From NCBI GenBank assembly GCA_903928685.1, contig CAIYRS010000108.1, positions 1-64,000 of the forward strand: DNA of 64,000 nt. The letters run 5' to 3'. Shown here one piece after another: positions 43,371-54,551 of this stretch. Below the pieces are notes generated by a model, which saw only the letters and a list, made by a program, of their open reading frames with translations, did not search any database and was not told the DNA's origin. The stretch comes from an uncultured Methylococcaceae bacterium. GTDB taxonomy: Bacteria > Pseudomonadota > Gammaproteobacteria > Methylococcales > Methylomonadaceae. The first letter of the stretch is position 1. Each line of letters begins with the position of its first letter. The position numbers and the translations under genes are program-made.

Positions 43371-44876
43371 TTAAGGCTCAAGCGCAAAAGCATTCAACAA
43401 ATCGCCCGCATTTTCCCGCACACCTGCCAGCGGCTCTAATTGAAAGCGGCGGGTGATAAATTTAATGATGGAGGTGGTGTCGTAGGCGGTATGGTCGACA
43501 AAACCGCGTTTTGCGAAAGGCGAAATAATGATGGCGGGTACGCGTGTGCCTGGTCCCCAGCGGTCGCCTTTTGGTGGTGCGGCATGATCCCAAAAGCCAC
43601 CGTTTTCATCATAAGTAACAATAATTGCTGTAGACCGCCATAATGGGCTGCGTTGTATGCGGCTGATTAGTTCATGGATGTGTTGGTCACCGGATAACAC
43701 ATCGGTATAACCGGGATGTTCGTTCAAATGACCGACGGGTTTATAAAAGGCGACTTGCGGCAGCGTGCCTTGGTCTATGCCGTTAAAAAATTCTTCGGCA
43801 TCTTTTAAATGGTTTTGGCGATCGGCTGTGCCGGGCGCAAAACGGGCAAAATAATTAAACGGCTGATGATGTGCTTGGAAGTTTAATGCGCCTTCGCTGT
43901 GCTTATAAATCACCGTGCGCGGCTTGTCGGCGGCTTGTAAACCATCCGCAAGGGCTAGGTTCCAGCCGCCTGCATACCATGCCCAAGAAATATGTTTCGC
44001 AGACAAGGTGTCGCCAATGGTTTTGCTGGTTTGCGGCGGTAACGGATGTTGTGCCGGATCAGCAAAGCGGGCATCACTGCCGTTTGCGGGTGGTAATCCC
44101 GAAGGTTGGTAAGGCGGTTGCTGGCTGTTGATGGAGTAGCCGTCGGGCGTTATCGCGCCGTCCAATAATAACGGCGGCCCTTGCATGGCGGATTTGGGCG
44201 ACTCTGGTTTGCGTTGCAGACGGCCTTGGCTATCAACTTGGGCGCGGAGTTTTGCTGGTGCGCTCAGGTCTTGCGGGGTGCAGGCGCAAATCAGCCATTG
44301 ATGGTTAAGGTAAGAGCCGCCAAATGCGCTCATGAAAAAATTATCTGCCAAAACATAGTCTTTAGCCCATTGCCACATCGGCAATTTAGAACCGTCGTAA
44401 TAACCCATCGCTAAGCCGCCAGCATCGGAAATGGCAGCGAAGCGGTTATTTTTACCGCCGTTGATCTGTTCGATATTTTGGTAATAACGGTGCAGCAAAT
44501 CCCGTGAGTTTTCTGAAAGCGGCAGGTTGACGGGCGGTAAATCGATACGGAACGGGCGGTTGGGTAATTTCACCTTGATTGCAGGGTGTTCGTTATTTTT
44601 GCTGGCGGGAATCGGCGGTAGTTCGGCAAAGGCTTTGCCATCGTGGTCTAGTTGTAAATACTGCTCAGGCGTTGCTTGGGCGATGCCATTGGCGTTGGGG
44701 AACAAACCGTAGAGATGGTCAAAACTGCGGTTTTCCGCGTAGATGACGATGATGTGTTCAATGGCATCAAGCCCTTTGGCGCTGGGTTTGCTGGTCGTAC
44801 TGGCGCAGTTGGCTAACAATAGCGCCAGTGGCAAAATCAGTAATGTTGGGTAAGGTAAGCGCTTAATAATGGTCAT
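43371..44876 (-). CDS. AcpA/phospholipase C-type phosphoesterase, lipoprotein
   Basis: This 501-residue protein is of the phosphoesterase family that includes Francisella AcpA and bacterial phospholipase C. The motifs are IIVIYAENRSFDHLYGLFP (metal and nucleophile region), NFFMSAFGGSYLNHQ, IIVTYDENGGFWDHAAPP and GTRVPAIIISPFAKRGFVDH. A lipoprotein signal (MTIIKRLPYPTLLILPLALL, then LANC) places it in the envelope. The ATG at 44876 was chosen because a longer frame to 44936 buries this signal. The substrate (acid phosphatase, phospholipid or phosphonate ester) cannot be fixed from sequence; it fits the phosphate-scavenging theme. Confidence 0.85.
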   Translation of the reverse strand: MTIIKRLPYPTLLILPLALLLANCASTTSKPSAKGLDAIEHIIVIYAENRSFDHLYGLFPNANGIAQATPEQYLQLDHDGKAFAELPPIPASKNNEHPAIKVKLPNRPFRIDLPPVNLPLSENSRDLLHRYYQNIEQINGGKNNRFAAISDAGGLAMGYYDGSKLPMWQWAKDYVLADNFFMSAFGGSYLNHQWLICACTPQDLSAPAKLRAQVDSQGRLQRKPESPKSAMQGPPLLLDGAITPDGYSINSQQPPYQPSGLPPANGSDARFADPAQHPLPPQTSKTIGDTLSAKHISWAWYAGGWNLALADGLQAADKPRTVIYKHSEGALNFQAHHQPFNYFARFAPGTADRQNHLKDAEEFFNGIDQGTLPQVAFYKPVGHLNEHPGYTDVLSGDQHIHELISRIQRSPLWRSTAIIVTYDENGGFWDHAAPPKGDRWGPGTRVPAIIISPFAKRGFVDHTAYDTTSIIKFITRRFQLEPLAGVRENAGDLLNAFALEP

Positions 44877-45056
44877 GATGGTATTCGGCGGCAAAAAAAT
44901 TATCTTGCCAATGGTAGCATAGCGGAATTCACACACAGCAATCGTTAGCTTAACGATTTGGTTGTGGGATAAGTCTTAACTTCGTTTGGTAACGTGGCGT
45001 GCAAACCTCGGTTTGTGCTGTTACAAGGCTCAATGTTGAATGTCGGTATTATTTTC

Positions 45057-48821: not shown

Positions 48822-48883
48822 ATGTCATTTGTCATTAATTGTTTTGTCATTTTGTGTTCATGGAACTGTCATGATACTGACAT
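48822..48883 (+). promoter_or_regulatory. PhoB-binding array (Pho boxes) upstream of olsB-olsA
   Basis: Four consecutive 7-mers with exact 11-bp periodicity match the PhoB half-site CTGTCAT: TTGTCAT 48844, TGTTCAT 48855, CTGTCAT 48866 and CTGACAT 48877. A fifth, ATGTCAT at 48822, is in register two periods upstream. An AT-rich candidate -10, TATTAT at 48891, lies seven bases beyond the last half-site, with no good -35, as expected for PhoB-activated promoters. Confidence 0.85.
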
Positions 48884-48931
48884 GTTTTTTTATTATCGTA
48901 TTTCTTATAGTCAATGGAGCCATGTATTTTT

Positions 48932-49723
48932 ATGAAACAACACACTGCCGATATACAAGTAAAACCTGCCAAACGCTTAGAGTGCTTTGTGGCAGAATCA
49001 CAAGAATTAATACAAGAAGCGCAGCGTTTACGATACCGTATTTTTGCCAAGGAAATGGGGGCAAAACTGAAATCTGAAGCCGAAGGCTTAGATTACGATG
49101 AAGTGGATAATTTTTGTGACCACTTGGTGGTTTTCGATAATGTCACTAATAAAATTGTCGGCTATACCCGTTTATTAACTGACCAACAAGCCAAGCAATT
49201 GGGTCGGTTTTATTCCCAAAGTGAATTCAATCTGGATCATGTCTTAACCTTACCAGGACGTTTTTTGGAAATAGGCCGCACCTGTGTTGACCCTGATTTT
49301 CGCGGCAGCGCGGTGTTGACGACTTTATGGTCTGCCTTAGTGGAATATGCTTTAAAAGGCCAATTCAACTATTTATTGGGTTGTGCCAGTATTACCCCAG
49401 GCCCTAGCGGTTTTGCGGTTGACGCGGTTTACCGCAATATCGACAGCAAAAACATCGCACCAGCTTCTTTGCAAGTTACCCCAAGTATGCCTGTACCAGC
49501 ACAATTACGTTGTGACCGTGACGAATCCGGCATTCCGCCATTGTTAAAAGCGTATTTACGTTTTGGCGCTTTGATTTGTGGCGAGCCATGCTGGGATGAA
49601 GATTTCAATTGCATGGATTTATTCGTATTATTGCCGCTGGATCAATTACAACAACGCTACAGCAAGCATTACATGAGAGATTGCAAGGTCAGCAATGAAA
49701 TTAACGCCACTAGTACTTTATAA
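48932..49723 (+). CDS. olsB: L-ornithine N-alpha-acyltransferase OlsB
   Basis: OlsB attaches a 3-hydroxy fatty acid from ACP to ornithine, giving lyso-ornithine lipid at the inner membrane. The 263-residue protein has the GNAT-like OlsB pattern: EAQRLRYRIFAKEMGA, DNFCDHLVVFD, LEIGRTCVDPDFRGSAVLTTLW, LLGCASITPG and GEPCWDEDFNCMDLFVLLP. The ATG at 48932 is preferred (GGAG about 12 bases upstream); an ATG at 48914 would add six residues. It overlaps olsA by 29 bp. The promoter carries the Pho-box array, which fits synthesis of phosphorus-free lipids during phosphate starvation. Confidence 0.88.
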   Translation: MKQHTADIQVKPAKRLECFVAESQELIQEAQRLRYRIFAKEMGAKLKSEAEGLDYDEVDNFCDHLVVFDNVTNKIVGYTRLLTDQQAKQLGRFYSQSEFNLDHVLTLPGRFLEIGRTCVDPDFRGSAVLTTLWSALVEYALKGQFNYLLGCASITPGPSGFAVDAVYRNIDSKNIAPASLQVTPSMPVPAQLRCDRDESGIPPLLKAYLRFGALICGEPCWDEDFNCMDLFVLLPLDQLQQRYSKHYMRDCKVSNEINATSTL

Positions 49724-50477
49724 GCTTGTCCGTGTTGCCCTGTTATTTCTGATTGGCTTGGTGATAGCGGCGATTTTATTCCCGCTAATCAATTTACTGC
49801 TTACTCAAAAAGCCGCCAAGAATACCCGTGACGCGATAAAAAAACATTGGCTGCTTTGGTTTAGTGCCATTATCAAATTGCAAATCAGCCAGCAAGGTGA
49901 ATTGCCAGAGCAAACCGCGTTACTGGTGAGCAATCATGTTTCTTGGCTAGATATTATTGTTATTGGTCGTTATTTGCCTGCCTATTTTGTTGCCAAAAGC
50001 GATATTTTAAATTGGCCTGTCATTGGTTATTTGGCGCGTCAGGCAGGTACTATTTTTATCCGTCGTGGCGATAAAAAACACATTATGGCGACAGCAGAAC
50101 GCATGGTGTGGCTGCTTAAACAAAACAGCAATATTATTGCGTTTCCTGAAGGTACCACCACTTCTGGTGATGAAGTGTTAAATTTCCACGCATCGCTGTT
50201 CCAACCTGCGTTATTGACCAAATCAGCTATCCAGCCAATCGCCATTGAATATCTGGGCGCAGCCAAAACCTTGGCACCGTTTATTGGGGATGATGAGTTT
50301 GTTCCGCATTTGTTGAAAATGCTGACCATGGACAAAATCGAAGTAAAGATTAGCTTTTTGCCGATGATTAATACTGTTGGCAAAACTCGTGTTGCAGTCT
50401 GCAATGAAAGCCGGGCAATGATTGTCGGGCAAGTAATGGGTTTGGAAGCTCCGCTGGTTTCCAACGCTGGCGAATAG
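49695..50477 (+). CDS. olsA: Lyso-ornithine lipid O-acyltransferase OlsA
   Basis: This 260-residue 1-acylglycerol-3-phosphate acyltransferase-family protein has an N-terminal membrane helix (VALLFLIGLVIAAILFPLINLLL), the catalytic NHVSWLD (HX4D) and the substrate motif FPEGTTTSGDEVL. Overlap with olsB marks it as OlsA, which adds the second fatty acid to lyso-ornithine lipid, rather than PlsC. A dual role in phosphatidic acid synthesis cannot be excluded. Confidence 0.85.
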   Translation: MKLTPLVLYKLVRVALLFLIGLVIAAILFPLINLLLTQKAAKNTRDAIKKHWLLWFSAIIKLQISQQGELPEQTALLVSNHVSWLDIIVIGRYLPAYFVAKSDILNWPVIGYLARQAGTIFIRRGDKKHIMATAERMVWLLKQNSNIIAFPEGTTTSGDEVLNFHASLFQPALLTKSAIQPIAIEYLGAAKTLAPFIGDDEFVPHLLKMLTMDKIEVKISFLPMINTVGKTRVAVCNESRAMIVGQVMGLEAPLVSNAGE

Positions 50478-52574: not shown

Positions 52575-53267
52575 ATGTCAAGACTGAATATTCTTGTTGT
52601 TGAAGATGAAGATGCTATCCGTGGCATGTTAGTGATGGTGCTAGAGCAAGCTGGCTTTAAGTCAATTGCGGTCGCTGATGCGGAAGATGCCCAAAAAGCA
52701 TTGGATGATGTGTTTCCAGACATGATTGTGTTGGACTGGATGTTGCCCGGCGTTAGCGGTGTTGAATGGGCACGTCGCCTAAAAAAAGAACCGATGTACC
52801 GGGATTTGCCGATTATTTTGCTGACCGCACGCGGTGAAGAAGAAGACAAAGTACGCGGCTTAGAAATTGGTGCGGATGATTACATCACCAAACCGTTTTC
52901 CCCCAAAGAATTGGTGGCGCGTATCCGTGCCGTGCTCAGGCGCAGCGGCAAAATACAAGGCATGGCGCAAATCACCTTGGGTGACTTGGTGTTGGACACT
53001 GAGCAGCACCGCTTGAGTATTGGCGACAAACAACTGGAAGTCAGCCCGACTGAATTCCGCTTGATGCAGTTTTTTATGACCCATCCGGATAAAGTCTACA
53101 GCCGCACCCAGTTGTTGGATCAGGTTTGGGGGCGTAGCGTTTATATTGAAGAACGTACTATCGACGTGCATATCCGTCGTTTACGGAAAATTCTGGGCGA
53201 ATATGGTCGTGAAGATTTGGTGCAAACTGTGCGCGGCTTTGGTTACCGATTCTCGTTAACGGATTAA
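52575..53267 (+). CDS. phoB: Phosphate regulon response regulator PhoB
   Basis: This 230-residue OmpR-family transcription factor has a receiver domain with acidic pocket VVEDEDAI, phospho-acceptor Asp in IVLDWMLPG and KPFSPKELVARI. The C-terminal winged helix contains SPTEFRLMQFFMTHPDKVYSRTQLLDQVWG and RTIDVHIRRLRKIL. The PhoB-type recognition helix and the downstream phoR make the assignment secure. It activates genes with Pho boxes such as olsB. No pst-phoU genes are in the window. Confidence 0.95.
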   Translation: MSRLNILVVEDEDAIRGMLVMVLEQAGFKSIAVADAEDAQKALDDVFPDMIVLDWMLPGVSGVEWARRLKKEPMYRDLPIILLTARGEEEDKVRGLEIGADDYITKPFSPKELVARIRAVLRRSGKIQGMAQITLGDLVLDTEQHRLSIGDKQLEVSPTEFRLMQFFMTHPDKVYSRTQLLDQVWGRSVYIEERTIDVHIRRLRKILGEYGREDLVQTVRGFGYRFSLTD

Positions 53268-53270
53268 TTG

Positions 53271-54551
53271 ATGCACATTTGGCGTAAAGAAATCCGCATA
53301 GCATTAATTGGCTTTTGGGTAGTTGCGGTTGTCGGTTTGAGTACCGGGTATTTTTGGCCGTTTTTGCTGGTGTTTAGCTGGTATTTGCTGCTTAGGCAAA
53401 CATTGCAAATCAACCGTTTTGAAAAATGGCTTAGGGATGGTGCTAAGGGCCAACATCCTAAGGCTAGCGGTATTTGGCAGGAAATTTATTTCCATTTATA
53501 TCAACAAAAAAAAACCGACAAACGCCGGAAGAAAAAATTACGCAAATTGATTGAGCAGTTCCGGCTGTCAACAGAAGCCTTGCCCGATGCTGCCGTGGTC
53601 TTAAATAACAGCGACGAAATTGAATGGGCCAACAAAGCCGCCCGGCAGGTCTTGGGCTTACAACAAAACGATAACGGTCAGCGTATCCCTAACCTAATCC
53701 GTTATCCAGATTTCATCACTTACCTCAAATCAGGCAATTACAGTCAATCGGTAGTCATTCCTTCCCCGCTCAACCACCGCGTTATCTTAGAAGTGCGGAT
53801 TATTCCCTACGGTGGCAATCTACGTTTATTGTTGGCGCAAGACGTTACCCAGCTAAAGAAAATGGAAACCATGCGTAAGGATTTTGTCGCCAATGTCTCG
53901 CATGAACTTAGAACGCCATTGACGGTACTCAAAGGCTATTTGGAAACTATGCAAGACCTCGATGACGGCAATTCGCCTTTATTGACGACTTCTTTTAGGG
54001 AAATGCAAAGCCAAACCGAACGTATGCAGCATTTGGTGGACGATTTGCTGTTGTTGGCGCGTTTGGAAACGCAACGTAAAAAGCCGCAGTGCATTAATGT
54101 GCCCAGCTTGTTAAGCCAGATTTGCAAAGAAGGCGATGTTTTAGAAAGCGCCACTAGGCGTATTGAATTGACACTGGAATCCTCGGCTTACATCTATGGT
54201 GAAGAGCAAGATTTACGCAGTGCTTTCAGTAATTTACTGAGCAACGCCCTGAAATATTCCCCAGACGATGCCTTAGTAAAAGTGCGTTGGTATCAAACCA
54301 GCAATGAGTTGGTATTAGCGGTTGAAGATTTTGGCGAAGGCATTGCCGCTGTCGACATTCCCCGAATTACTGAACGGTTTTATCGGGTTGAGCATAAACG
54401 CCGCAAAAAAGTCGCTGGTACGGGTCTAGGTTTGGCGATCGTAAAACATGTCTTGGTACGCCATGACGCTACTTTGGAAGTAGTGAGTGAATTAGGTAAG
54501 GGCAGTTGTTTCCGCTGCCATTTTCCTATCCGTAGGTTGTGTACTATTTGA
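53271..54551 (+). CDS. phoR: Phosphate regulon sensor histidine kinase PhoR
   Basis: This 426-residue inner-membrane sensor has two adjacent hydrophobic segments (residues ~10-40). A PhoR-type linker and PAS domain follow (ALPDAAVVLNNSDEIEWANKAA), then HisKA with the H box VANVSHELRTPLTVLKGY and an ATPase domain with NALKYSP, DFGEGI and GTGLGLAIV. The ATG at 53271 follows the phoB stop by three bases; a TTG directly after the stop is less likely. It phosphorylates PhoB under phosphate limitation. Confidence 0.95.
   Translation: MHIWRKEIRIALIGFWVVAVVGLSTGYFWPFLLVFSWYLLLRQTLQINRFEKWLRDGAKGQHPKASGIWQEIYFHLYQQKKTDKRRKKKLRKLIEQFRLSTEALPDAAVVLNNSDEIEWANKAARQVLGLQQNDNGQRIPNLIRYPDFITYLKSGNYSQSVVIPSPLNHRVILEVRIIPYGGNLRLLLAQDVTQLKKMETMRKDFVANVSHELRTPLTVLKGYLETMQDLDDGNSPLLTTSFREMQSQTERMQHLVDDLLLLARLETQRKKPQCINVPSLLSQICKEGDVLESATRRIELTLESSAYIYGEEQDLRSAFSNLLSNALKYSPDDALVKVRWYQTSNELVLAVEDFGEGIAAVDIPRITERFYRVEHKRRKKVAGTGLGLAIVKHVLVRHDATLEVVSELGKGSCFRCHFPIRRLCTI

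Follow-up and report, generated by a model that had tools for sequence, protein, structure and literature searches.

A conserved tandem Pho-box array forms a predicted PhoB promoter upstream of the lipid genes olsBA in Methylococcales

Results

Organization of the olsBA locus

The window, that is, the whole stretch of 64,000 nucleotides analyzed here, comes from the genome of an uncultured Methylococcaceae bacterium that groups with Methylovulum. It contains olsB and olsA, with a 29-bp overlap between the two genes, an array of 11-bp direct repeats in front of them, and phoB and phoR further downstream (Table 1).

Table 1. Coordinates of the features of the olsBA region (matches are counted against CTGTCAT)
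Feature	Position	Strand	Remarks
Acid phosphatase gene, phosphoesterase family	43371-44936	-	TIGR03397, 647 bits; 5 kb away
Outer, partly decayed Pho box (ATGTCAT, CATTAAT)	48822-48839	+	In 11-bp register; ATGTCAT at 48822-48828, 6/7 matches
Degenerate outer unit CATTAAT	48833-48839	+	4/7 matches
Distal Pho box TTGTCAT N4 TGTTCAT	48844-48861	+	TTGTCAT at 48844-48850, 6/7 matches; TGTTCAT at 48855-48861, weak, 4/7 matches
Proximal Pho box CTGTCAT N4 CTGACAT	48866-48883	+	Sole exact genome match; CTGTCAT at 48866-48872, 7/7 matches; CTGACAT at 48877-48883, 6/7 matches
Predicted -10 element TATCGT	48894-48899	+	Exactly 10 nt past the last half-site
olsB, N-acyltransferase, GNAT fold	48932-49723	+	PF13444; OlsB models best in NCBIfam
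olsA, lyso-lipid O-acyltransferase, PlsC family	49695-50477	+	PF01553
phoB, response regulator, predicted activator	52575-53267	+	TIGR02154, 338.9 bits (cut-off 296.2)
phoR, sensor kinase	53268-54551	+	TIGR02966, 412 bits (cut-off 334.2)

The OlsB protein shows an Acetyltransf_5 domain with 114 bits. NF052555 ranks first among the NCBIfam models with 161.7 bits against a cut-off of 320, and the other OlsB model reaches 151.8 against 350; the names of these models (BRUA, RHOCB) suggest alphaproteobacterial training sets. Since both scores lie well under the equivalog cut-offs, the protein was filed as OlsB-like, with ornithine as the likeliest, unproven substrate. OlsA models likewise top the NCBIfam ranking for the second protein, with 125.2 bits against a cut-off of 300, and this PlsC-type acyltransferase is coupled to olsB in a conserved pair: among the 57 relatives, olsA comes next after olsB in 55, and the remaining two loci are interrupted by a contig end. 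At the family level, the identification of olsB-olsA made in an earlier sequence-only reading of this DNA holds.

It is unlikely that PhoB induces olsBA but that the main product is another acyl-amino-acid lipid, such as a lysine lipid, or that the role is in envelope stress instead of phosphate sparing. In Acinetobacter, OlsB has been linked to lysine lipids as well as ornithine lipids (PMC11828411), which together with the sub-cut-off scores of OlsB and OlsA would fit such a product; however, the glycine-lipid model gives only 18.3 bits for OlsB, far under the first-ranked OlsB model, and the Pho-type promoter described below favors phosphate sparing. The amino acid that OlsB would N-acylate is most likely ornithine; with the second acyl chain attached by OlsA, the product would be a lipid that lacks phosphorus and can stand in for phospholipid. 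We fairly infer that ornithine lipids replace phospholipids in this organism at low phosphate.

PhoB and PhoR both exceed their curated NCBIfam equivalog cut-offs, and a gap-free alignment of 91 residues links the DNA-binding domain of PhoB to E. coli PhoB structures. No Pho box was seen in the window upstream of phoB, and none upstream of the acid phosphatase gene.

Structure of the repeat array and promoter

A Pho box consists of two 11-nt direct repeats (PMC4415409). Between 48822 and 48883 there are six units with N4 between neighbors, all in a single 11-bp register, and an extra TTGTCAT at 48829-48835 that is out of register with them. Direct reading bears out the coordinates given in the sequence-only reading for four CTGTCAT-like 7-mers at exact 11-bp steps (48844, 48855, 48866 and 48877), and also the register of its fifth unit at 48822, although the degenerate unit at 48833 separates this one from the other four.

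The four consecutive units from 48844 score 23/28 against CTGTCAT, whereas in surrogates of the 64-kb window (60 sequences from a first-order Markov model) the best four-unit score was 20, with a mean maximum of 17.8. Throughout the 3.38-Mb genome, exact CTGTCATN4CTGWCA is found only at 48866-48882, and a degenerate four-unit pattern (at most 3 mismatches) matches at the olsB locus only; its reversed control gave zero matches in the same genome. A profile of the olsB promoter, with 15 rows of which one was the window's own promoter and the others came from relatives, gave E=1e-9 at this promoter and E=0.24 at the next place outside it in a genome search. Matches of a single-box pattern elsewhere in the genome were taken as chance; the four loci inspected were without phosphate genes.

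Neither a -35 hexamer nor a sigma-70 -35/-10 pair was found at the olsB promoter, as expected if PhoB takes the place of the -35 element. The region therefore combines the features of a tandem-Pho-box promoter: CTGTCAT-like direct repeats at 11 bp, about 10 nt to the -10 element, and no -35 of its own. Transcription is predicted to begin at about 48905-48908. Downstream, a GGAG at 48916-48919 lies upstream of the ATG at 48932, which is most likely the start of olsB.

Conservation of the array in Methylococcales

The comparison set contained 57 olsB loci of Methylococcales which, with the window, gave 58 promoters, 28 of them non-redundant. All 58 show a four-unit array (at least 17/28) that ends exactly 10 nt before TANNNT, a combination present in one of 2900 surrogates; the loss of the 11-bp half-sites in close relatives, which the sequence-only reading had named as a result that would refute it, was not seen. 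Across the 28 non-redundant promoters, mean half-site scores were 6.25, 4.39, 4.46, and 5.43 at -33, -22, -11, and 0, respectively, and 3.79 at -55, compared with 1.77 off register, and strong half-sites (mean >3.2 of 7) are located exclusively at multiples of 11. The unit at -33 scores at least 5/7 in 93% of these promoters, the last unit in 89%, and the unit at -55 in half. Six or seven units are found in many olsB promoters of Methylobacter, Crenothrix and others, so the most fitting interpretation of the fifth unit at 48822 is that it is what remains of a third box.

The gene surroundings are far more variable: coaD adjoins olsBA in just eight of the 57 loci and phoBR lie near olsB in one, some of these loci being short and most extending more than 5 kb downstream. 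Since the array is kept with olsBA across differing surroundings, it belongs to the olsBA operon and not to the neighborhood. By the same counts, the closeness of phoBR to olsBA in the window is incidental; the sequence-only reading was right about the distance of 2 kb (phoB starts 2.1 kb downstream of the end of olsA), but as evidence for control of olsBA this adjacency was rejected.

That the repeats are chance or inherited functionless sequence has a negligible probability. The region is AT-rich and holds several TGTCAT-like words, one of them the out-of-register copy at 48829; nevertheless, the four-unit score lies above every surrogate, the array with its fixed -10 spacing is conserved in 58 of 58 promoters (28 non-redundant), and it survives altered gene neighborhoods. 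The earlier reading of two tandem Pho boxes is thus upheld by a score that surrogates do not reach, by uniqueness in the genome and by conservation with fixed spacing.

Some members of the order show particular arrangements. In one Methylovulum-group locus (L025, G015:C13:17023-17800), the olsB match falls into two parts that overlap, and the gene contains an internal stop, from a frameshift or assembly error; the Pho-box array upstream is intact. Another genome (G034) has two olsB-like genes, at G034:C1:85421 and 1080782. Where a close olsB relative is lacking, members of the order have genes for OlsF-like fused enzymes (575-618 aa; L027-L030), by which, as predicted from sequence, they would make the same lipid in another way; the box-like sequences upstream of these genes are weak and inconsistent.

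The motif at other phosphate genes

An independent pattern scan of 41 Methylococcales genomes found similar arrays upstream of pstS (two genomes), phosphate-selective porins of the PF07396 family (four), PhoX, PhoD and a phosphoesterase, most of them again with a TANNNT-like hexamer 10 nt downstream. The pstS promoters of the same genomes show a single box, with the 10-nt spacing in 22 of 25 (control, 1.3%); in the window's own genome the pstS promoter reads TCGTAAT-N4-TTGTCAT-10-TATTCT, which is weaker than the olsBA array. The motif is therefore present at recognized Pho genes (pstS, Porin_O_P, PhoX and PhoD), and this matching geometry within the order identifies it as a Pho box. Among the loci inspected for weak profile matches in relatives, no phosphate genes were recognized from the starts of the reading frames.

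OmpR-family regulators share direct-repeat binding, and CreB-like proteins also use 11-bp direct repeats, with the tag TTCAC. The array could in principle be the site of such a regulator, with olsBA answering to a non-phosphate signal, and some of its units read TTCAT, close to the CreB tag. We consider this very unlikely, given that the strict units are CTGTCAT and CTGACAT and that the same form and spacing are found before pstS, PhoX, PhoD and the phosphate-selective porins of the order.

A rather doubtful idea is that in Methylococcales PhoB has its most heavily equipped target in olsBA, with an operator that would ancestrally have had three boxes (six to seven half-sites), and not in phosphate uptake, with a single box at pstS. 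If this were true, few reactions of these methane oxidizers to a lack of phosphate would be stronger or earlier than the exchange of membrane lipids.

Three further loci were recorded. In L207 (G007:C12:89000-91400), an array-bearing phosphate-selective porin gene adjoins a second pstS copy and is oriented away from it. In L146 (G036:C8:207877-207916), a four-unit array with one mismatch to the degenerate pattern is located 50 nt upstream of an EAL-domain-like gene, suggesting phosphate control of cyclic-di-GMP through a putative EAL domain. PlcP is the phospholipid-degrading enzyme of lipid remodeling; L245 (G000:C9:12444-13043), in the window's own genome, encodes a 272-aa metallophosphoesterase that is PlcP-like by resemblance only, and no Pho box was found before it.

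Discussion

Model of olsBA regulation

The region 48822-48899 is very probably a PhoB-activated promoter driving olsBA, whose product would be a phosphorus-free lipid. On phosphate scarcity PhoR would phosphorylate PhoB, as is established for the family, and PhoB dimers would then occupy, in head-to-tail order, an operator of 11-bp direct repeats made up of two complete boxes and the remnant of a third. Judging from the geometry, PhoB at the -35 position would bring RNA polymerase with sigma-70 to the TATCGT element, and a single transcript would carry olsB and olsA, whose translation is probably coupled given their overlap. PhoB binding, low-phosphate induction and the lipid product are what we infer; the site, its geometry and conservation, the motif shared with other Pho genes, and the family-level gene identities are directly observed. 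PhoB control of olsBA, as proposed in the sequence-only reading, is accordingly supported as a prediction by the Pho-box geometry, its conservation, the recognized Pho genes with the same motif, and the precedents in Acinetobacter, Burkholderia sensu lato and Vibrio. Points that weigh against the model are the 4/7 match of the unit at 48855, the OlsB and OlsA scores under the equivalog cut-offs, and the lack of a visible Pho box before phoB in the window.

Regulation of ornithine-lipid genes by PhoB has been described before in Alpha- and Gammaproteobacteria, so that the olsBA promoter, strongly supported as a PhoB promoter by sequence comparison, adds a new bacterial order to a known regulatory link. 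No Pho box in Methylococcales was found in the literature searched, and the array supplies a Pho-box model for this order. It also provides gammaproteobacterial methane oxidizers (Methylovulum, Methylobacter, Crenothrix and Methyloglobulus) with a promoter for the synthesis of phosphorus-free lipid that is conserved and open to testing. Many gammaproteobacterial methane oxidizers inhabit phosphorus-poor lakes, fens and rice fields.

Comparison with known systems

In the E. coli pstS-type PhoB promoter, four CTGTCAT units at 11 bp are followed, after about 10 nt, by a sigma-70-type -10 element. The olsBA promoter likewise has four 11-bp units, a 10-nt spacer and tandem boxes replacing the -35 element; however, its array precedes lipid genes, its last unit is usually CTGACAY, and many Methylococcales relatives have a third box, which is decayed in the window.

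Outside the order, 15 of 28 gammaproteobacterial olsB loci show four-unit arrays unmatched in 60 surrogates, and nine of the 28 have TANNNT exactly 10 nt past the best array. Eleven more distant olsB genes (from alphaproteobacteria, Bdellovibrio-like bacteria and others) showed no array clearly above chance. The sequence-only reading knew the PhoB-olsB link from some alphaproteobacteria; the link extends beyond that class, in view of Acinetobacter olsB, Vibrio OlsF and about half of these 28 loci.

Phosphate control of ornithine-lipid synthesis is shared with Burkholderia sensu lato, where Pho boxes are predicted before olsB (PMC7814305), and with Vibrio cholerae, where OlsF depends on PhoB (PMC12186959), although the former is another bacterial group and the latter uses another enzyme than OlsBA. 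OlsB/A are noted in some methanotrophs, and Methylosinus trichosporium OB3b makes ornithine lipid under phosphate limitation (PMC9239053); this bacterium is a methanotroph like the present one, but an alphaproteobacterium. In Acinetobacter, a Pho box likewise lies upstream of a gammaproteobacterial olsB and aminolipid formation requires PhoR (PMC11828411). Acinetobacter olsA is not phosphate-responsive (PMC11828411), whereas in the Methylovulum-group genome, with two to three boxes upstream of olsB, olsB and olsA overlap, and therefore both genes should respond to phosphate.
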